DNA of 64,000 nt from a bacterium. GTDB lineage: Bacteria > Electryoneota > Electryoneia > Electryoneales > Electryoneaceae. The position numbers were made by a program, and so were the translations under genes. This document shows, piece after piece, positions 22,405 to 32,642 of the stretch (its first letter is position 1; each line of letters starts with the position of its first letter). The notes under the pieces are model-generated. The model was not told the DNA's origin, ran no database searches, and worked only from the letters and a program-made list of their open reading frames with translations. The stretch lies in assembly GCA_020444265.1 (NCBI GenBank), contig JAHLLH010000005.1, positions 186,001-250,000 on the forward strand. The letters are read 5' to 3'.

Positions 22405-22606
22405 GTTGACTGTTTTCCCATAGTACGGATTTCTTACTCCTTCGGGGACGACTATTTTTACAAGCGGCTTGACCTCTCTGCCAGGACACGGTCTCAGAAC
22501 TTACGGCCCCCTTTCTCCCCGACCTGCATACTTGCCCTTGAAACCCCGGTTCAGACCTGCTACCCTATGCGGATTGACAATGAACACCCCTTTAAGGAGT
22601 GATGGT

Positions 22607-23317
22607 ATGCGTTGTGCGGTGGTGGCAGGGACAGGCTGGCAGGGTGCGGGGATTGCGACACGGATTGCCTCTGCAGGATGGACAGCAGTGATCGGGTCTC
22701 GATCTCTCGAAAAAGCTGAGATCCTGGTCGAAAACCTGCCCGATTTTGTCGGCCTTCCGGCGGAACGATTTGAAGCGGCAACCAATGAGGATGCGGTCAA
22801 GGAAGCGGACGTGGTCTGGATCGTCGCTCCCTCCACCGGCCACAAGGCGGTGCTCGAGGCGATCAAACCGCACCTCGATGACGAACAGCTCATCATCGAT
22901 GTCACCGCACCGGTCGATCCGGAAAACCATCTCAACGAGATTTGGCCGCCAGAAGGTTCCTACACCGCACAAACCCAGGAGCTGCTGGGGGACGATTACG
23001 ATGTGGTTGGTGCCTTCAAAAATGTCAGCGCCACAATGTTGCTCAACCACACCATGCCCCCGAATTCGGACATCCTGATTGTCGGGGACGATCTCCAGGC
23101 CAAGCACCGTGTCGGCTTGATGTGCAAGCAGATGGGATTTGATGGCTATGATGTCGGGAAACTGGAACACGCGCCCCAGATCGAAGGCCTCACCCGCCTG
23201 ATGATCCACCTCACCTATGCCTACCACCTCAACCAGCCGGGTATCAAACTGGTCGAGTTGAGTCGAGGGATGGAGATCCTGCCTGACGATGATCTGTTCG
23301 AGCGAAAAAAGAAGTAG
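22607..23317 (+). CDS. NADPH-dependent F420 reductase-like protein
   Basis: A 236-residue Rossmann protein. ATG 22607 is in frame 8 nt after AAGGAG; ATG 22602 is out of frame. It has GTGWQGAGIATRIASAGW for dinucleotide binding, IGSR at the end of strand 2 (typical for NADP phosphate) and VWIVAP. The later AFKNVSATMLLNH matches the substrate side of the NpdG / F420-dependent NADP reductase family. Family reaction: hydride transfer between F420 and NADP. A relative using another substrate is possible because no F420 biosynthesis gene is visible in this window. Confidence 0.75.
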   Translation: MRCAVVAGTGWQGAGIATRIASAGWTAVIGSRSLEKAEILVENLPDFVGLPAERFEAATNEDAVKEADVVWIVAPSTGHKAVLEAIKPHLDDEQLIIDVTAPVDPENHLNEIWPPEGSYTAQTQELLGDDYDVVGAFKNVSATMLLNHTMPPNSDILIVGDDLQAKHRVGLMCKQMGFDGYDVGKLEHAPQIEGLTRLMIHLTYAYHLNQPGIKLVELSRGMEILPDDDLFERKKK

Positions 23318-23372: not shown

Positions 23373-23498
23373 CGGTTCTGGTATTCCTGCCAGGAGTCAC
23401 GATGACACCATTTTTCCTCTCTGCATAGGATTATCGTTTTTCTCTCGAATTTTCACTATTTTAACAGGACGAATAAAAGAGAGATGTTTGGAGGAACC

Positions 23499-24848
23499 AT
23501 GCGTACGCTCTACCGAATCGGCCTCATCCTCCTGGCAATCAGCCTGGTCACGATTACAGCCGTCGCTGATGATGTCCGTGTTCCCTTCGACAAGGGCGGG
23601 AACCTGCTCACCTATACCAGCGAGCATGAGCAACGATTCAACCTCTTCCCTGGAATCCAGAACCTCATCAAGGCAGAACTTTACCTGGAAGATGGTGGCA
23701 GCTACATACTGGAAATTCAGTATGACCAGGGCGGGTCGCAGAAAAGGCAACGTCGTGTGCTCACAGAGGACGAGGTCGACGCGATCCGTGAGACCATCAG
23801 CCTCGAGATGCAGCGTGTTGAGGTGAGGCTTGACGAGGGTGATGAACGGACCCGCTTCCTTGTCGGTACAAGCCTCCTCGGCCTCGGCTACTATGGCTGG
23901 AGCATACCTCTTTCGATTGACGTCAATGACGGCACTACTGCGCTGGCGATGTACATGATGGTCAGCGGCGCCTCCTTCTACTATCCCTACTGGGTGACGC
24001 AGGATCGGACGGTCACGCCGGCGATGGCACGTCTGGGGCTCTATGGAGGAACTCGAGGCATTGCCCACGGCTTCATGCTCGGGCTTGCGATGGACCAGAA
24101 CCCCAGCTCGGAGATGCTCTTTTTCCTGGCAAATACATTGAGCATCGCAGAGCTTGTAACTGGTTTCACGGTCGCTCGAAACAGCAACTACTCTACGGGC
24201 ACCGCTGAAAGCATCGCCTTGATGGGTGATATGGGGTTGGCCTGGGGAATCGGGGGAGCAGCAGCCCTGGAAATGGAAGAGGCAGGCATCTCTGCCCTGG
24301 GATTGGTGGGTAGTTTTCTCGGGGTTTCTTCGGGTACCTGGATTGGCAACCGGTTTGATCTATCAGCCGGGGATGTTCGTGCGGTCCAGGCCGCAACCAT
24401 GCTTGGTGCATTGGCCCCGGTCACCGTCGGCTCTGCCATTTACGGCGATAAGCTGACGAGTCAGCAAGTCGCCGCCCTGTTGACCTTCGGCTCTGCTGTA
24501 GGAACCTGGTATGGACTGCACCGTTCCGGTGGCACCCATTTCGCCGAAGGGCGCGGGAACCTGATTCGTCTAAGCACCAGCATGGGGGCCCTGACCGGAA
24601 CCGGCATTGTCTACATCGTAAATCCAGAAACCGATACCGCAACCCCCTACTTGATTGGTGCCACGATAGGCGGATTTGTAGGGTACTCGATGATGTACAA
24701 AACGCAACTCCAGTTGCACGGTCCGGGCAATCGATCCCTCTCAATTCGAACCGACTTCAACCCACTCGGTTTGATGGCGATGAACGCGAAGCATGATGGT
24801 CGCTACCGCTACCACCCACCGATCGCTTCGCTTACCGTTCGTTTCTGA
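23499..24848 (+). CDS. Unknown exported, glycine-rich membrane protein
   Basis: 449 residues; function not recognised. GGAGGA at 23490-23495 favours ATG 23499 over ATG 23484. The signal-like N-terminus is RTLYRIGLILLAISLV, ending near AVADD. A soluble portion follows (about 25-125, rich in charged residues), then a run of Gly/Ala-rich hydrophobic stretches (VGTSLLGLGYYGW, GLVGSFLGVSSGTWIG, LIGATIGGFVGYSMM). These could be transmembrane helices or glycine-zipper segments. The C-terminus RYHPPIASLTVRF is barrel-like. Its 3' end overlaps the convergent amidohydrolase gene by 17 bp. Confidence 0.65.
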   Translation: MRTLYRIGLILLAISLVTITAVADDVRVPFDKGGNLLTYTSEHEQRFNLFPGIQNLIKAELYLEDGGSYILEIQYDQGGSQKRQRRVLTEDEVDAIRETISLEMQRVEVRLDEGDERTRFLVGTSLLGLGYYGWSIPLSIDVNDGTTALAMYMMVSGASFYYPYWVTQDRTVTPAMARLGLYGGTRGIAHGFMLGLAMDQNPSSEMLFFLANTLSIAELVTGFTVARNSNYSTGTAESIALMGDMGLAWGIGGAAALEMEEAGISALGLVGSFLGVSSGTWIGNRFDLSAGDVRAVQAATMLGALAPVTVGSAIYGDKLTSQQVAALLTFGSAVGTWYGLHRSGGTHFAEGRGNLIRLSTSMGALTGTGIVYIVNPETDTATPYLIGATIGGFVGYSMMYKTQLQLHGPGNRSLSIRTDFNPLGLMAMNAKHDGRYRYHPPIASLTVRF

Positions 24849-25557
24849 GGCAGGTAAGCATCCCTCGTAGTGATTTCACCAGATCATGCTGGAGTGTCAG
24901 CCACTGCGACCCGTTTTCGAGGGGGTAGCGCTGGTTGACCTCCAACTCGATCCCGATATACTGCGAGGAAGGCAGGATTTGTCGCAGAGCTTGCACGTGA
25001 CCGTCCATCGTGCCCTGGTAAGGCTCATTCCTTTTCACCCTCCAGCCACCCTGTGACCGAAGAGAAAGCTCCTGCTCCCACAAGTCGACAACAGCCACCT
25101 CAAGCGAACGCTCAGGATCGTATAGCAATCCTATATCAAACGGACGAACGCTACCATCCAGTTCCGGGGTGAAGGTGTGGACCGAAAGGTGCAGTACTGA
25201 TCGCCCCGCCTCGATCCGTACAGCAATTTCACGTTGAACGTTTTTTCGAAATGGATGGTAATAACGTTCCAGCAACTCACGTTTCTGGGCAGGATTCAAA
25301 TCCTTCACCAGGGCACTGAACATGTTCGGATTGCCCAGCGAACGGTTCAAGTCGATCAGTAGTCGTGTGACTGTACTTGTGAAAAGAGGCGCGCCCGTCG
25401 ATCTTGCCATGCATCTCGCAAGTTCAAGTGCTCCCGGGTCCCAGCCACGATGGCTGGCAAGATGTTCGCCAGCCAACGTGAACAACTCCCCAAACATCGA
25501 TGGCACCCCATTACCACCGTGCTCGCATGTCAGGATCAGGTCAACGGATTGGGGCAT
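24832..25557 (-). CDS. N-formylglutamate amidohydrolase-like protein
   Basis: About 241 residues. ATG 25557 overlaps the GCS2 gene by 17 bp and has AAGGA upstream on the coding strand. FGase-family motifs: LILTCEHGGNGVP, HRGWDPGALELA, LLIDLNRS, and HLSVHTFTP followed by FDIGLLYDP. GIELEVNQR is near the end. The typical enzyme hydrolyses N-formylglutamate in histidine breakdown, but no hut genes are here. In this cassette it more likely removes an acyl or amino-acid cap from a ligase product. It is last gene of a four-gene minus-strand operon. Confidence 0.85.
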   Translation of the reverse strand: MPQSVDLILTCEHGGNGVPSMFGELFTLAGEHLASHRGWDPGALELARCMARSTGAPLFTSTVTRLLIDLNRSLGNPNMFSALVKDLNPAQKRELLERYYHPFRKNVQREIAVRIEAGRSVLHLSVHTFTPELDGSVRPFDIGLLYDPERSLEVAVVDLWEQELSLRSQGGWRVKRNEPYQGTMDGHVQALRQILPSSQYIGIELEVNQRYPLENGSQWLTLQHDLVKSLRGMLTCLRNER

Positions 25558-26797
25558 GGAAGGGATGTCCTTCGGCCAGGCAACGGCACAATTCTCCATA
25601 GACCTGAGTGCGCGAGGAACGTGTGTGGTTGCTTCCGATTGCACGCAGGATACGTCGGGCCAGTGTGCCCTCCGTGAAAATGGTTTTCAGAATGCCGCCC
25701 CACCCTTCCTGGGCAAGTTCATCGGGCGAAAACAGTTGTTTCACAAGCTTGGCCCAGAGATCACCCATGGTGATCGGGATCGCGTGCGAATCTCCAAACG
25801 CATGCAGAACGTCCGGTGCCTCGACAAGCGCTGCTTCGCCCTGACGGATCGATTTCAGCAACAGGGATTCAAGGGTTGATGTCTTGATCTTGTTCAAGGC
25901 TGACAGCCTCACCCACCGTTCCTCGCTTAGTGCACGGACAAGCGCCACGACAGAGGCAACAATCGCGATGTCAGCACGCGGTGATTCCTGGATATCCAGC
26001 AGGCGGATCTCGATGGCCCCGCGATCGAATCGTGCTATCGCACCCCGGCTGTTGAGCCACTCATGCTGCAAAAGACCATCGGGATCGTGCGGCTCAATAT
26101 CCCGGTAAATCCGTTTGAGAATTTTCTTGTGATACTCATCGATTGAATGGACTGGTTCAGGGATCATCTGTCCAGCAATCGAAGGCACAGCATGTTGGTT
26201 TCGTCGGTAATAATCGAGCCGTGTATCCAGCAGACCGGTAACCCTCCCCTCAACAATCGGTGAGGAGGCGGCAATCGCCGGGATCAGGGGGAGGACGATT
26301 CGGATGGCGGCATGCAGACGGGCAAACTCCTCATCATCCCCGAAGGGCAGGTTGATGTGGGTGGACTGCACGTTCGACCAGCCATGACCACGTACACCGA
26401 AAATCCTGTCGTAAGCACGATAGATCTCGTTCTGTTCATGGGGCCAGAGCCGGGTTTCGGACTCCGGGTCCATCCAAGGATGCATCGCGGTGGGCATCAA
26501 CATCGCACCCTCCGTTTCAAGGATGGTGTTGGCACGCACGATGTTCTCATGGAATCGATCCGCCAGACCGATCAGACTGGACGATGGACCGTTGGTCTTC
26601 AATTCGAGGACATGCAATGCGAGTTCATTGGACCAGCCTATCACGCCCACCTCTGCTTCGCTCGCGCCGGGTCCGGCAAGTGTGGCAAGAAGACGGTCCG
26701 CAACCGGCTTCACCTGAAGGGTGATCTGGTCAACAATCATGAACTCCAGCTCAATGCCGTACCCCGTGAAGAGTTTCAGGGGAAAAGTCTCCTTCAT
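25541..26797 (-). CDS. GCS2-type carboxylate-amine ligase (glutamate-cysteine ligase-like)
   Basis: 418 residues. The active-site core GYGIELEFMIVD near the N-terminus matches the E-x-E metal motif of the glutamine synthetase-like GCS2 fold. WSNVQSTHINLPFGDD is the substrate/ATP region, and IEIRLLDIQESPRADIAI is the conserved C-terminal strand. Family reaction: ATP-dependent amide bond between an amino-acid carboxylate and an amine. The substrate is not readable; YbdK- and EgtA-like members differ. The start overlaps the stop of the ATP-grasp gene by 4 nt, and its own end overlaps the amidohydrolase start. Confidence 0.88.
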   Translation of the reverse strand: MKETFPLKLFTGYGIELEFMIVDQITLQVKPVADRLLATLAGPGASEAEVGVIGWSNELALHVLELKTNGPSSSLIGLADRFHENIVRANTILETEGAMLMPTAMHPWMDPESETRLWPHEQNEIYRAYDRIFGVRGHGWSNVQSTHINLPFGDDEEFARLHAAIRIVLPLIPAIAASSPIVEGRVTGLLDTRLDYYRRNQHAVPSIAGQMIPEPVHSIDEYHKKILKRIYRDIEPHDPDGLLQHEWLNSRGAIARFDRGAIEIRLLDIQESPRADIAIVASVVALVRALSEERWVRLSALNKIKTSTLESLLLKSIRQGEAALVEAPDVLHAFGDSHAIPITMGDLWAKLVKQLFSPDELAQEGWGGILKTIFTEGTLARRILRAIGSNHTRSSRTQVYGELCRCLAEGHPFHAPIR

Positions 26798-28272
26798 TTC
26801 GCACTCCTGCCTTCTTTGCGCCGTTCGATACGGCTGAGTAGCACCTTCATGATCTCGAGGTAGAGCTGATCCTTCAGGACCAGGTCTTCCACCTTGGTCT
26901 CGACACTGGGATTATCATTGACCTCGATGACAAACCACTTGTTCCCCACCTGCTTGAGATCGACCCCGTAAAACCCATCACCAATCAGGTTCGCCGCTTT
27001 CAAAGCGAGATTAACCATCCCTTTTGGCGCATCCTCGACGGCCAGTGTTTCCCACTGCCCGTACCGTCCACGTGTCCCCTTTGACGCATGGTTAATGATC
27101 TGCCAATGCTTCTTCGCCATGAAATATTTTGAGATGTAGAGCGGAATACGGTTCAGAATGCCAACCCGCCAATCGAAATCAGTTGGCATAAATTCCTGGG
27201 CAATCAGTAGATCAGAATTCTCGAACAGGCTGCCAGCCTTCGCATTCAATTCCTCGAGTCGATCCACCTTTACGACCCCAAGTGAGGATGAGCTGTCCGG
27301 CTGTTTGAGGATCAGGGGGAAACCGAGCTCCTCAACTACGAGCTTCAAATTGTCTTTGTGCACGATCCTCGTTTCTGGAGTCGGCACTCCAGCACGTGCC
27401 AGGATTTCTGCCAGGTAGACCTTATTGGTGCAACGCAAAATCGAAAGCGGATCGTCGATCACCACCAGCCCTTCCGCATGTGCACGCTGTGCAAATCGAT
27501 AGGTGTAGTGGTTGACCGCGGTGGTCACTCGGATGAAGAGAGCGTCAAATTCACTTAGACGGCCATAGTCATCCTTCCCTATCACCTCGACCGCCATCTC
27601 CAACCCTTCAGCAGCCTTGACAAACTTCTTCAGTGCCTTCTCATCGGATGGTTTCACCGGGTCTTTGTCATCCCAGAGGATGGCGAGATCGAAACGAGGT
27701 GAGCCCGGTTTGCTGATGGAACGGATTCGCCCGCCCATATAGGTGCGCGTCTGCTCGACGGCAAAGTCGAGGTGATCGGGTGGAATCTGGCTGGCAGGCA
27801 TCGGCACAATGCTCCGCAGCGACCAATCCCCTTCGCTGTCACGTGAAAAAGTGGCCCGCAGGAAGGGTGAGGGGAACAGTTTGAAAAGGGCGTTGGCCAA
27901 ACGAGTATGGCGTTTCGCAACATTCCGTCCGAAATAGATGCTCAGGGTAAATCGTTCGGACTGAATAGGGGCCAGAGAGCGCTGAATCCGCTCCTCGAGT
28001 TCATCGGATGCCAAACCCACTACCGCCGGGCTGCGAAGCTCCTGTAGGGTCATCACGCTCGGCATCGGACGATGTCCGCGCGCCTCAGCCAACAACGAGA
28101 CATAGTATCCCGTCGACTGGTATTTATAGTGGCGGCAAAGGTTAAATACACGCGCACGCCGAAGCCGACTGAACTCCGGGTCCATCAGATAGGAGCGTGC
28201 CGCGACAACCCGAATCCCGGGAACATCGAGCGGCCAATCCTTCAACTGGTTCACGACAACCAACAAATCCAT
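26794..28272 (-). CDS. RimK-like ATP-grasp ligase with N-terminal RLAN-type domain
   Basis: 492 residues. ATG 28272 has GGAGG on the coding strand. Residues about 1-190 match an RLAN-like N-terminal domain (VVAARSYL, RVFNLCRHYKYQSTGYYVSLLAEARGH). Residues about 195-485 are ATP-grasp: NKVYLAEILARAGVPTPET, FPLILKQPDSSSSLGV, the metal and ATP site near GDGFYGVDLKQ and VIEVNDNPSVE. RimK-type enzymes add amino acids, usually glutamate, through amide bonds. Here it pairs with a GCS2 ligase, which suggests sequential ligations on a small molecule or peptide. The target is unknown. Confidence 0.88.
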   Translation of the reverse strand: MDLLVVVNQLKDWPLDVPGIRVVAARSYLMDPEFSRLRRARVFNLCRHYKYQSTGYYVSLLAEARGHRPMPSVMTLQELRSPAVVGLASDELEERIQRSLAPIQSERFTLSIYFGRNVAKRHTRLANALFKLFPSPFLRATFSRDSEGDWSLRSIVPMPASQIPPDHLDFAVEQTRTYMGGRIRSISKPGSPRFDLAILWDDKDPVKPSDEKALKKFVKAAEGLEMAVEVIGKDDYGRLSEFDALFIRVTTAVNHYTYRFAQRAHAEGLVVIDDPLSILRCTNKVYLAEILARAGVPTPETRIVHKDNLKLVVEELGFPLILKQPDSSSSLGVVKVDRLEELNAKAGSLFENSDLLIAQEFMPTDFDWRVGILNRIPLYISKYFMAKKHWQIINHASKGTRGRYGQWETLAVEDAPKGMVNLALKAANLIGDGFYGVDLKQVGNKWFVIEVNDNPSVETKVEDLVLKDQLYLEIMKVLLSRIERRKEGRSAK

Positions 28273-28282
28273 ATGGCCTCCG

Positions 28283-28987
28283 CTACTTGCTCTTTTCAAG
28301 GATCAACAGATTGCCATCATAGCTGAGGACACCGAGCAGGATCGCGCCGATCAAGCGATGAATACCCACGGCATACATTCGGTCCCGGCTGCGTTTGTGA
28401 CGGCGCAAGGGGTCAGCGACCAGTACCTCCTGGCTCTTCACTTCGTAGCCGCATAGCACGACAAAGTGCCCGGCCGAGGTGCCACGAATCGGGTCTTCTT
28501 CATCGTCCCATCCGCGTTCTCGTGCGTTTCCGTAGAGATAGGTTGCACTTAGCCCCGTCAGGATCGGGACTCCACGTTTCAGTGTCCGACGAATCAGCCC
28601 TGGCGTGAGGTCCTCGTAGCGGATGATCCCGCCCAAATCGAGGTAGCGCAGGTAGGCATGGGTCGCTTCATGTAGCTTGCCGTCCTGCTTGGCACGCGCC
28701 TGACGGATCAGCGCTGTGCGAAGATCGATCTCGGGATTTGAAAACCAGGTTGGATCAAAGAGACGGAGATCGTAGGTGTAGAGGGTTGCTGAATAGCCCC
28801 GTTCGAGCGCGTGGATGCCCATCAAGACCGCAAGGGTGCCACCATTCGACAGACGATCAACCCCGTCAATCACCTCGTGAAGCGACAGCAAATCACCGTA
28901 ATAGCTATAAATCGATTTGAGACAGGTTGGCCCACAGGTGGAGTCGTCCGGCTGACGCTGGATGTCCAGCTTGAGGCGGATGTCCAT
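28283..28987 (-). CDS. C39-like cysteine peptidase, first gene of the amidoligase cassette
   Basis: 234 residues. ATG 28987 follows GAGGAG at good spacing. The N-terminal QPDDSTCGPTCLKSIY contains the catalytic Cys of a papain-like C39 fold; TSAGHFVVLCGYE holds the likely His, with Asp in LVADPLRRHKRS. There is no signal peptide, ABC transporter or membrane helix, so it is a soluble cytoplasmic enzyme rather than a bacteriocin exporter. It is separated from the ATP-grasp gene by only 10 bp. A role in processing or hydrolysing the product of the two ligases is inferred. Confidence 0.82.
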   Translation of the reverse strand: MDIRLKLDIQRQPDDSTCGPTCLKSIYSYYGDLLSLHEVIDGVDRLSNGGTLAVLMGIHALERGYSATLYTYDLRLFDPTWFSNPEIDLRTALIRQARAKQDGKLHEATHAYLRYLDLGGIIRYEDLTPGLIRRTLKRGVPILTGLSATYLYGNARERGWDDEEDPIRGTSAGHFVVLCGYEVKSQEVLVADPLRRHKRSRDRMYAVGIHRLIGAILLGVLSYDGNLLILEKSK

Positions 28988-29298
28988 ACGAATACTCCTC
29001 GACACCCGGAACAGGTCTCAAACCGGCCACCTTCCGGTCGGTGGGGTTGCCGAGGGGTCCGGAATCCACGCTACTCAAGCCCTCGACCTTGGTAGGGCGG
29101 TAATGTACGCTCGTTTTCGAAAATCCAGATATGGCTCCAATTTTGAGACTCCATTTGTACACCTGATCTGTTACATGATCTCCGTACCCCCACTCCCCCT
29201 GTAAGCAGTTTTCCATCTGGTTGGTATGTGGCTCCTCCGCTCACAATTTTATTCCCATGCACGAATTCAACAGGGAGGCCCCAATTCCAGCACTAAGT
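28988..29298. other. Upstream region of the amidoligase cassette
   Basis: Non-coding stretch with no convincing ORF. It must contain the minus-strand promoter of the cassette, but no clear -35/-10 pair was found. A hairpin-like segment (AACCGGCCACC / GGTGGGGTT) lies near 29021-29048. Confidence 0.35.
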
Positions 29299-29327
29299 TT
29301 GATTTACCTAACATCTTTCGCTATACT
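29299..29327 (+). promoter_or_regulatory. Sigma-70 promoter of the heme monooxygenase-like gene
   Basis: TTGATT (29299-29304), 17-bp spacer, TATACT (29322-29327). The predicted leader of about 95 nt can fold: GTTGCC (about 29333) with GGCAAC, and GGATG with CATCC inside. Confidence 0.65.
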
Positions 29328-29430
29328 TAGCCGTTGCCGTGGATGATTTCTCAACCATCCGTCACAGAGGCAACCAGGTCAGGGGGGATGGACAAAACGC
29401 GTGCTTGGCACCGGTAGCTGGAGTGATAGA

Positions 29431-29751
29431 ATGTTCGTCGCCATGAACAGGATTACTGTATCCGAAGAGTACCTCGAAAAGTTCGAATACATGTTCAAAA
29501 CCCGTGCGGGTGAAGTGGATCAGGAAAAGGGCTTTATTGAAGCGAAGATCCTGCGTCCCAAAAAAGAAGGCCAGCCCTATATCGTAATGACCTACTGGGA
29601 GTCGGAAGCCGACTTCAACCACTGGGTCGATTCGGGTGCCTACATGAAAGGCCATTCCCGTGCTTTCGGCGATATGCAGAAGGCGCGTGAGGAGGGCCGC
29701 AAAATGCCGATGCACAGCGATGTCGAGACCTATGAGGTCTTCGCTCAATAG
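29431..29751 (+). CDS. Antibiotic-biosynthesis-monooxygenase-fold protein, heme-degrading HmoA-like
   Basis: 106 residues. ATG 29431 follows GGAG at 29420. The start FVAMNRITV has the Asn seen in IsdG/HmoA heme monooxygenases. The middle has GFIEAKILRP, then TYWESEADFNHW, and a His in GHSRAFGD that could bind heme iron. The family forms ferredoxin-like dimeric barrels that open heme to release iron. The heme pocket residues fit, but other ABM-fold functions are possible. It is a single-gene unit with its own promoter and terminator. Confidence 0.82.
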   Translation: MFVAMNRITVSEEYLEKFEYMFKTRAGEVDQEKGFIEAKILRPKKEGQPYIVMTYWESEADFNHWVDSGAYMKGHSRAFGDMQKAREEGRKMPMHSDVETYEVFAQ

Positions 29752-29812: not shown

Positions 29813-29879
29813 CGTTTGCACCCTCAAACCACCATCCTCGAGTTTGCTCATCCCCGCATGGGGTGCTACTTTACCTGTA

Positions 29880-29901
29880 GCCCTGCGTACATACGCAGGG
29901 C
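29880..29901. other. Perfect 10-bp hairpin upstream of the M6 protease gene
   Basis: GCCCTGCGTA (29880-29889) / TACGCAGGGC (29892-29901), with GTTTT shortly after. It may be a second terminator or a stabilising 5' structure of the protease mRNA. Confidence 0.5.
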
Positions 29902-29966
29902 ATTCGTTTTCAACGGCTGCAAAAGCCCCGCACCATTGCAGCACGCCGTCCTGTCTGGAGGAAGCA

Positions 29967-32642
29967 ATGTCTTACCGTCACAGTTTGTTCACGGCCATCG
30001 CCCTCGCTCTGATTATTCTGCCCGCGGCCGCGATGCCACCCCATCCTGATCTGGTTGACCGGATTGATCGTGGTGAGCAGCCACTCCCTTATGCGCTGCA
30101 GCATCGCGCAGAACTGATGGCACGAGGTGTGGACACTCCCCCCGAAGCAGTTCGGTGGAACTCGGGCGAATTGGATGACATCAACTTCAACACCCTTCTC
30201 CTCTTGCTCGACTTCAGCGACAACGTTCAAAATGTGGATGCTACCGATTTCGACAGCCTGATGTACGGCAATTACTTCGGGACGGTGAAGCATTTCTACC
30301 AGGATGCCTCCTACGGCAACTTCTTTGTTCAGACGGAAAACTTCCCCGGCACGATCGGCTGGCTGAGAATGCCTGAGACCTACGACTATTATGTTGACGG
30401 TCAGAATGGCTATGGCGACTACCCTGCCAATGTGCAGGGGATGGTGGTCGATGCGATCAACGCTGCCGACGAATTCGTCAACTTCGCAGACTACGATAAC
30501 GATGACAACGGAGCGGTGGACGGTTTGATGATTGTCCACGCCGGCCGTGGCGCGGAATTCACAGGCAGCGACAATATGATCTGGTCGCACTCCTGGTCGA
30601 TTCCGACCCAGACACTGGATGGTGTCACCATCCGTCGCTACGTCACCATGCCGGAATACTGGTCCAGCCATGGCGACATGACCTGCGGGGTCTTTGCTCA
30701 TGAAATGGGCCATATGATCTTTGGTCTGCCTGACCTCTACGATACCGACTACAGCTCGAATGGTGTCGGCGACTGGAGTCTGATGGCAGGCGGTTCCTGG
30801 AATGGGAACACGGGTAACTCTCCCGCGCATCCGGATGCCTGGTGCCGTGTTCAGATGGGATTCCTCGAGGCAACTGAGATCACAGAGAACGGTCCCTTCT
30901 CCTTCCCTCAGGTTGCAACCAACGAGGCAGTCTACCGTGTCCAGTCCGCTGTGATGAATCCCAATGAGTATTTCCTCGTCGAGAACCGTCAACGGACCAG
31001 CTATGACGCTGCGCTGCCGTCAGATGGACTGCTGATCTGGCACATTGACGAAAACGTCAATACAGGTAACTCGATGGAGTGGTATCCCGGTTTTGAGAAC
31101 CAGGGTCACTACCTCGTTGCGATTGAACAGGCGGACGGCAACTGGTCACTCGAACACGACAGCGGTTCTGGTGATGGAGGCGACCCCTTCCCCGGCAGCA
31201 CCAATGCGACCGCGTTCGATGGGCAGAGCATCCCCAGCAGCAACTCCTACAACGGCGACCCGACTTTTGTCGGAATCGTCAACATCAGTCCCTCCGCTGA
31301 AACGATGAGTGCGAATGTGGTCCTCACCCCGCTTCCCGCGCCTCACACCCTCGACTACACGATCGATGTGGAATCAGGCGAGGCGACCTTCAGCTGGATG
31401 ATGGACGGTGATGTCAGCGATGTGCTTGGCTATACGGTTTATCGTGACGGTGCGCTGATCGGCAACGCCGAGGAGATGACCTTCAGCGATGAACTGCCTG
31501 AGATGGAGACCCACTATACCTATACGGTGAGCGCGGTCTGGCCGGAGGGTGAGTCGATTTACAACCCCAGTATCGATGTCTTCTGGCCGGGTGCGGCTGC
31601 TCCGAAGCGGCTTCGGTACGAAGTGGTGGACCTGGACAACCGTGTTATCAACCTGATGTGGAACCAGTGGCGCAGTGACAGTCTGCTGGCCGATGATGGC
31701 AGCTACGAGCAAAACACTTACCTGAGCAGCAATGTGCCCAGCGGCCCGAAACTGGCCCAACGTTTGACCGCCCCCGCAGATGGGTTTGTCAGCGGAGTAC
31801 GAATCTGGTTCAATGACAACGCCACCTTCGAACTCGGCGAAGTCCGAGTCCGGATCTACACCGACAACAACGACACCCCCGGTGCAGAGATCTATGCCAG
31901 CGGGGTCTTCATCCCGGAAAGCACCGGCTGGATCACCCATGACCTCGGTGAACAGGCTGTGATGGTCGCCGATGGGGCCGACATCTGGGTCGCGGTCGAG
32001 TGGGTTGAAACCGGCCACTCGATGATTGGACGCGATGTCAGCAGCGAGTACCGGGGACGTGCCGCCATCGCACTGGACGGCAGCACGTGGCAGGGACTGG
32101 ATGAGGCGCTGAACGGTATCCTCGAGGGCAACCCGCTTATCCGTGCCGAATTTGGACGGGATGAAGCGGTTGGTGTGATGGGCCTGCAGGAGTTTGAGGT
32201 CTACCGTGACGACGAGCTGCTGGCGACGATCACCGATACCCAGTACGAGGATACCCTTCCCGAAGAAGGCGTCTACACCTACCATGTAGATGCGATCTAC
32301 GTGCAGGGCACCTCCTCGTCGGAGAATTTGAATGTTGACACCAACACGCTCGACGTTCCCGCGATTGATGCACTTCCGACCGGCTTTGCCATCGGCAACG
32401 CCTACCCGAACCCCTTCAACCCGAGTGTGGCAGTGGCGGTGACCCTGGGACGGACAAGCGATGTCCGGTTCCAGGTCTTCGACGTCCTCGGACGGCAGGT
32501 GGCGGATGTCCGTCGCGACCGCCTGAGCGCCGGGTCACACACTCTTAGCTGGACCGCAGATGGTGTCGCGTCCGGCGTCTACTTTCTCCGCATCCAAGCC
32601 GGTCCCGAAACCGCCATGCGTAAAGTGGTGCTGATGCGGTAG
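29967..32642 (+). CDS. Secreted M6 family metalloprotease with C-terminal sorting domain
   Basis: 891 residues. ATG 29967 follows GGAGG. Signal peptide about 1-24, pro-region, then an immune-inhibitor-A-like M6 catalytic domain with zinc motif HEMGH starting at H245, and FGLPDLYD. Beta domains follow: a fibronectin-III-like part (VLGYTVYRDGALIG), a jelly-roll-like part (about 560-700), another Fn-III-like segment, and a C-terminal domain with NAYPNPFNPS, FQVFDVLGRQVADV and GVYFLRIQAG. The C-terminal pattern is the type-A sorting signal used by type IX secretion or related systems. It probably degrades extracellular protein. No Por secretion gene lies in the window. Confidence 0.9.
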   Translation: MSYRHSLFTAIALALIILPAAAMPPHPDLVDRIDRGEQPLPYALQHRAELMARGVDTPPEAVRWNSGELDDINFNTLLLLLDFSDNVQNVDATDFDSLMYGNYFGTVKHFYQDASYGNFFVQTENFPGTIGWLRMPETYDYYVDGQNGYGDYPANVQGMVVDAINAADEFVNFADYDNDDNGAVDGLMIVHAGRGAEFTGSDNMIWSHSWSIPTQTLDGVTIRRYVTMPEYWSSHGDMTCGVFAHEMGHMIFGLPDLYDTDYSSNGVGDWSLMAGGSWNGNTGNSPAHPDAWCRVQMGFLEATEITENGPFSFPQVATNEAVYRVQSAVMNPNEYFLVENRQRTSYDAALPSDGLLIWHIDENVNTGNSMEWYPGFENQGHYLVAIEQADGNWSLEHDSGSGDGGDPFPGSTNATAFDGQSIPSSNSYNGDPTFVGIVNISPSAETMSANVVLTPLPAPHTLDYTIDVESGEATFSWMMDGDVSDVLGYTVYRDGALIGNAEEMTFSDELPEMETHYTYTVSAVWPEGESIYNPSIDVFWPGAAAPKRLRYEVVDLDNRVINLMWNQWRSDSLLADDGSYEQNTYLSSNVPSGPKLAQRLTAPADGFVSGVRIWFNDNATFELGEVRVRIYTDNNDTPGAEIYASGVFIPESTGWITHDLGEQAVMVADGADIWVAVEWVETGHSMIGRDVSSEYRGRAAIALDGSTWQGLDEALNGILEGNPLIRAEFGRDEAVGVMGLQEFEVYRDDELLATITDTQYEDTLPEEGVYTYHVDAIYVQGTSSSENLNVDTNTLDVPAIDALPTGFAIGNAYPNPFNPSVAVAVTLGRTSDVRFQVFDVLGRQVADVRRDRLSAGSHTLSWTADGVASGVYFLRIQAGPETAMRKVVLMR

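Follow-up and report, generated by a model that had tools for sequence, protein, structure and literature searches.

Organization of the locus

The window analysed here, a 64,000-nucleotide stretch of bacterial DNA, carries four adjacent genes on its minus strand. The first gene of the presumed operon (28283-28987) encodes a C39-like, papain-fold cysteine peptidase or acyltransferase of 234 residues. It is followed by the gene for a 492-residue ligase (26794-28272), assigned from Pfam, active-site residues and an AlphaFold2 model, in which an RLAN domain (residues 1-183, 27724-28272) precedes a RimK/LysX/ArgX-like ATP-grasp domain. The third gene (25541-26797) encodes a GCS2-family carboxylate-amine ligase of 418 residues, recognized by Pfam and its invariant residues, and the fourth (24832-25557, with 25557 as the likely start) an amidohydrolase of the FGase family (PF05013), recognized by Pfam and profile matches. 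An earlier note, made from the sequence by itself, had described this compact layout, and the description was exact: the C39 and RLAN ligase genes are separated by 10 bp, the RLAN ligase and GCS2 genes share a 4-bp ATGA overlap, and the GCS2 and FGase genes overlap by 17 bp. The motifs claimed to be intact (STCGPTCL, VIEVNDNPS, IELEF and CEHGGNG) are all present.

Shine-Dalgarno-like sequences precede the starts of the C39 (GAGGAG), RLAN ligase (GGAGG) and GCS2 (AGGAG) genes; the FGase start has only a weaker AAGGA in front of it. The intergenic region upstream of the operon (28988-29430, not assigned to a strand) is the presumed promoter region. It precedes a divergent gene with an ABM domain (29431-29751, plus strand), 443 bp from the operon start. 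A search of the minus strand upstream of the operon for sigma-70-type promoters gave no signal, and no promoter or terminator signal at the operon exceeded chance. At the other end, a convergent gene without a Pfam match (23484-24848) lies tail-to-tail with the operon and overlaps it by 17 bp. Further out on the plus strand are an F420-dependent NADP reductase-like gene (22577-23317) and a gene (29856-32642) whose product, of the immune inhibitor A family, has a Peptidase M6 domain and carries a C-terminal sorting domain of the Por secretion system.

Conservation of the cassette

Scanning GTDB genomes with an RLAN alignment yielded more than 500 relatives, and the best 80 loci, a sample skewed toward close relatives of the query, were used for comparison. 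A C39 gene lies immediately upstream of the RLAN gene at 66 of the 75 loci with enough flank. GCS2 follows immediately downstream at 68 of 73 loci (67 counted by script, plus L040, where the GCS2 frame overlaps RLAN), and FGase comes next after GCS2 at 36 of 65 testable loci. FGase is optional: about half of the cassettes lack it. The loci span about a dozen phyla, including Planctomycetota, Pseudomonadota, Thermodesulfobacteriota, Myxococcota (by NCBI label), Balneolota, Verrucomicrobiota, Hydrogenedentota, Omnitrophota, Nitrospirota, Chlamydiota, Spirochaetota and others. These results show that the four genes form an operon-like unit whose order is kept across many phyla; with the identical order found again in phylum after phylum, chance is very far from explaining the arrangement. 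The earlier note had proposed that two enzymes that form amide bonds and two that break them work as a unit, and conserved order and co-occurrence bear this out: the genes are not isolated in relatives.

We also examined 386 genomes picked by kinship and not by RLAN similarity. RLAN was found in 25 of them; 17 carried the GCS2 subfamily and 15 the C39 subfamily. Both GCS2 and C39 occurred only in RLAN-positive genomes (Fisher p = 6e-24 and 9e-21, respectively), and the C39 set lay inside the GCS2 set. The search for FGase covered just the 25 RLAN genomes; 11 had it, all of them together with C39. Pairwise distances among the four proteins are correlated, with Mantel r values of 0.45-0.69 that none of 499 permutations reached, in a comparison made without a species-tree control. 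Ligases with a GCS2 partner fall into one well-supported group, inside which there are several GCS2-less rows, some of them at contig ends.

Carriers of the cassette include Thiobacillus denitrificans and Blastopirellula marina. Individual loci vary. A Legionella adelaidensis record holds an RLAN-GCS2-FGase tandem under generic names. In one genome (G266) the cassette is split into two pairs, RLAN with GCS2 and C39 with FGase, on separate contigs (L134, L135). In-frame stops were reported inside GCS2 (L008 4798-4856 of G003, and G318) and inside FGase (G266 and G126), reflecting either assembly error or decay.

The RLAN/ATP-grasp ligase

The ligase matches RLAN (PF14401) at 7e-48 and RimK (PF08443) at 3.7e-9. 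The earlier note had staked its reading on intact ligase active sites. In alignments of 30-45 relatives, the ATP-grasp residues K284, K323, D438, E450 and N452 were invariant, as were the catalytic residues of the other enzymes (below), so the sites are not degenerate. Judged by its RLAN domain and intact ATP/Mg residues, the protein is an RLAN-type, RimK-like ATP-grasp ligase, 24% identical to RimK. The AlphaFold2 model of the whole ligase (pLDDT 87) has Ddl, ArgX, LysX and RimK as its nearest folds.

A separate model of RLAN, built from an alignment of the RLAN region only, reached a pLDDT of 94.8, and all 50 of the 50 listed PDB matches were ATP-grasp-fold proteins. The best was ArgX (3vpb; E 4.3e-5, TM by query 0.65, 286 columns), although the rmsd was high, about 9 angstrom; PsnB was matched as well. 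In the model, RLAN resembles a whole ATP-grasp ligase minus about 100 residues: its strand-helix order follows that of two parts of the active half, the pre-ATP-grasp segment and the C-terminal palm, and the lid is missing. From this model, RLAN would be similar to an ATP-grasp fold that lacks the lid and is probably inactive. No sequence similarity between RLAN and the C-terminal ATP-grasp half was found, so that the degenerate ATP-grasp reading comes from structure comparison; given also the high rmsd, we regard it as a strong lead and not as a result.

Eight relatives of the ligase were seen on viral contigs. Six of these (L149, L150 and L152-L155), 33-42% identical to the window enzyme, match it only past RLAN; one is a C-terminal fragment and one is nearly full-length.

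The GCS2, C39-like and FGase proteins

The GCS2 protein matches PF04107 at 1.7e-30. Residues E16, E18, N57, E58, E65, H147, N149 and R265 are invariant in alignments of 30-45 relatives, as are the GxExE, N-E, HxN and ExR-D positions. With this domain and these predicted metal and nucleotide residues it is placed among the GCS2 carboxylate-amine ligases. It scored far under every cut-off of the NCBI curated GshA, EgtA and YbdK models (best, TIGR02050, 51.3 bits against 176.4), and profile matches to plant glutamate-cysteine ligase and YbdK were weak. By these scores the GCS2 subfamily is distinct from YbdK, EgtA and cyanobacterial GshA. No second GCS2 was found in the source genome, and a bona fide glutathione synthetase was present in only 1 of 17 GCS2-carrying genomes and absent from the other 16. 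The cassette is therefore not a glutathione auxiliary, and glutathione synthesis is not supported as its function.

The C39-like protein matches Peptidase_C39_2 at 2.7e-10 and also C39 in Pfam. Its putative catalytic set Q12, C18, H174 and D192 is invariant among 30 aligned sequences; from this Q...C...H...D set it is assigned to the C39/papain-fold cysteine peptidases. Profile searches matched structurally characterised C39 peptidases of the bacteriocin-leader type (3k8u, 3e-7). The window protein is a stand-alone domain without a fused transporter, and an N-terminal signal sequence is not evident.

For the FGase protein, the PF05013 match was 1.4e-27, and E8, H9, H32, D36, H123, E200 and E202, among them the presumed metal ligands E, H, H and D, are invariant (30-45 relatives). 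The domain and putative metal ligands place it in the FGase superfamily. A profile search matched Atu2144 (2odf) at 9.9e-38, whereas the HutG model TIGR02017 gave only 19.7 bits against a cut-off of 278.75. Identity with the HutG N-formylglutamate deformylase was accordingly rejected, and the window FGase belongs to a subfamily distinct from HutG. The earlier judgement that glutathione synthesis and histidine breakdown are both unlikely thus holds up against the curated-model scores, the lone GCS2 gene and the rarity of glutathione synthetase.

Gene neighbourhood

Within 800 bp of the cassette, no small ORF was conserved among about 80 loci. Those small-ORF families that did recur were limited to a handful of close relatives and resemble shadow frames of adjacent genes. 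Nor did the 80 loci share any widely conserved neighbour besides the four genes, or a conserved dehydrogenase, transaminase or oxidoreductase. The module is small and apparently soluble, without conserved linked transporters or precursor genes. The PADLOC anti-phage defence models did not match the cassette, and defence and phage libraries gave no relevant match.

RLAN ligases without GCS2 occur in other settings. At two loci (L127 and L130) RLAN adjoins a GNAT-DUF3335 fusion, itself C39-like, whose GNAT half is RimI-like; a Pseudomonas aeruginosa plasmid copy stands alone. The ligase is thus not always dependent on GCS2. We considered whether the window holds an RLAN plus GNAT-DUF3335 pair and rejected this: its C39 protein had no DUF3335 or GNAT match in a Pfam search, whereas L127 and L130 did. 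Iyer et al. 2009 (Mol Biosyst 5:1636) reportedly predicted an RLAN/RimK-like ATP-grasp beside a GNAT-DUF3335 fusion, and the Pfam RLAN entry is said to describe the same association. DUF3335-GNAT fusions are noted in a review, which credits them to Iyer et al. 2009 (PMC10318531). Our literature search, whose reach did not extend to that 2009 paper, found no account of a C39-RLAN-GCS2-FGase module. Predicted amidoligase cassettes are already known as a kind, of which the version with GCS2 and FGase is a variant.

At two Planctomycetota loci, a fusion of GNAT and a carbon-nitrogen hydrolase lies immediately upstream of RLAN (L043 6302-7858 and L046 6321-7877). In some Gammaproteobacteria (L084 1262-2116 and six other loci), an EgtC-like class II amidotransferase is encoded next to the cassette, divergently from it; it scored 199.6 bits against a cut-off of 218.65. 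EgtC takes off gamma-glutamyl groups. The neighbour is a weak hint of gamma-glutamyl chemistry, although its occurrence in one clade only may be plain synteny.

Predicted function of the cassette

GCS2 ligases activate the side-chain carboxylate of glutamate, RimK-like ligases attach an amino acid to a carboxylate, and glutamate is the residue added by most characterised RimK, LysX and ArgX relatives. We favour, with middling confidence, a self-contained, non-ribosomal pathway in the cytosol by which a small peptide containing glutamate is made and trimmed, the substrates being suggested by the enzyme families. The GCS2 enzyme would use ATP to activate the gamma-carboxylate of glutamate, or of a similar acid, and couple it to an amino group, supplied by an amino acid or by an amine. 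The RLAN/RimK-type ligase would then add a further amino acid to a free carboxylate of this product; a GCS2 step followed by an ATP-grasp step would parallel GshA followed by GshB in glutathione synthesis. The C39-like enzyme might cleave or transfer the peptide, much as the papain-fold phytochelatin synthase acts on glutathione. FGase, in about half of the cassettes, would be an accessory amidase for salvaging the product or for stripping off a cap, either acyl or glutamyl. The enzyme families are most simply read as making a glutathione-like peptide that C39 trims or transfers and FGase deacylates. This is the favoured reading, and we hold it with as much doubt as conviction. The earlier note had the cassette making and trimming a peptide-like metabolite or tag; its conserved enzyme unit stands, but no conserved small peptide gene of the kind it suggested seeking lies nearby.

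The main rival to the peptide reading is reversible protein tagging, which we consider unlikely though worth serious attention. Here the RimK-like ligase and GCS2 would add glutamate or another residue to a host protein encoded elsewhere, at its side chains or its C-terminus, and C39 and FGase would remove it, so that two ligases and two hydrolases form a writer and eraser set. RimK, of like fold, modifies ribosomal protein S6, and RimB removes the tag (PMC12239564); the RimI-like GNAT half of the related GNAT-DUF3335 protein and the lack of a peptide gene near the cassette point the same way. However, the RLAN ligase is distant from RimK, the cassette has no linked gene for a target, and the C-terminal tails of S6, mostly acidic or low-complexity in the relatives compared, do not separate cassette-positive from cassette-negative relatives in a comparison of few genomes with at least one tail read off-frame. 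Less probable still is a modified-amino-acid pathway with glutamyl-carried intermediates, as in LysW-dependent lysine or arginine synthesis or gamma-glutamyl amine use, from which FGase would free the product. The nearest folds of the ATP-grasp half include two enzymes that act on the LysW carrier, LysX and ArgX, and a GCS2-type ligation with later hydrolysis is how gamma-glutamyl-protected pathways work. Against this, the neighbourhood survey turned up neither a LysW-like or other small conserved gene nor a conserved dehydrogenase, transaminase or oxidoreductase.

The lack of a conserved small ORF and of a widely conserved neighbour argues against carrier-protein and RiPP models alike, although a carrier or target protein may be encoded elsewhere. 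In a graspetide-like RiPP system, the ATP-grasp enzyme would cross-link a ribosomal peptide whose leader C39 removes. C39 peptidase-transporters are indeed the commonest partners of graspetide ATP-grasp enzymes (PMC8939145), and the RLAN model matches PsnB, but the C39 domain here has no transporter fusion, and we regard this explanation as largely refuted and very improbable. That unrelated metabolic genes are clustered by chance, each family being common by itself, is refuted by the order kept over about a dozen phyla and the strict subfamily co-occurrence, and we give it practically no weight.

Returning to the glutathione-like peptide, a more specific version of it is possible but doubtful: the operon would make an undescribed glutathione-like peptide or cofactor of about a dozen phyla, with a central enzyme that pairs a degenerate, lid-less RLAN, acting in substrate binding or as a scaffold, with an active ATP-grasp domain in tandem. 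That a four-enzyme module is conserved in many phyla points to a small molecule, or else a protein modification, that is widespread and has no assigned chemistry. Since the GCS2 and C39 subfamilies depend strictly on RLAN, the functional hypothesis is a clean one, and a small, apparently soluble module without conserved linked transporters or precursors is directly testable from its two ligases.

Comparison with known systems

Phytochelatin synthase and EgtC are papain-fold or N-terminal-nucleophile enzymes that act on gamma-glutamyl compounds; the likeness is by analogy only, and the window enzymes belong to different sequence families. LysX and ArgX, which work with LysW, are among the closest in fold to the window ATP-grasp half, whereas the window has an RLAN domain and no nearby LysW carrier gene. 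The RimK/RimB system of S6 glutamylation and RloABC of Pseudomonas likewise combine a RimK-like ligase with a protease (PMC12239564). In the window, by contrast, the protease is C39-like and not retropepsin-like, GCS2 is added and no link to S6 was found. Glutathione synthesis by a GshA/EgtA-type enzyme and GshB shares the pairing of a glutamate-cysteine-ligase-fold enzyme with an ATP-grasp ligase, but the window ATP-grasp is RimK/LysX-like with an RLAN domain and is accompanied by an extra peptidase and amidase. The RLAN plus GNAT-DUF3335 pair, finally, also joins an RLAN ligase to a papain-fold peptidase; the window C39 differs in being a stand-alone protein of another family, with no GNAT, in a cassette that adds GCS2 and FGase.
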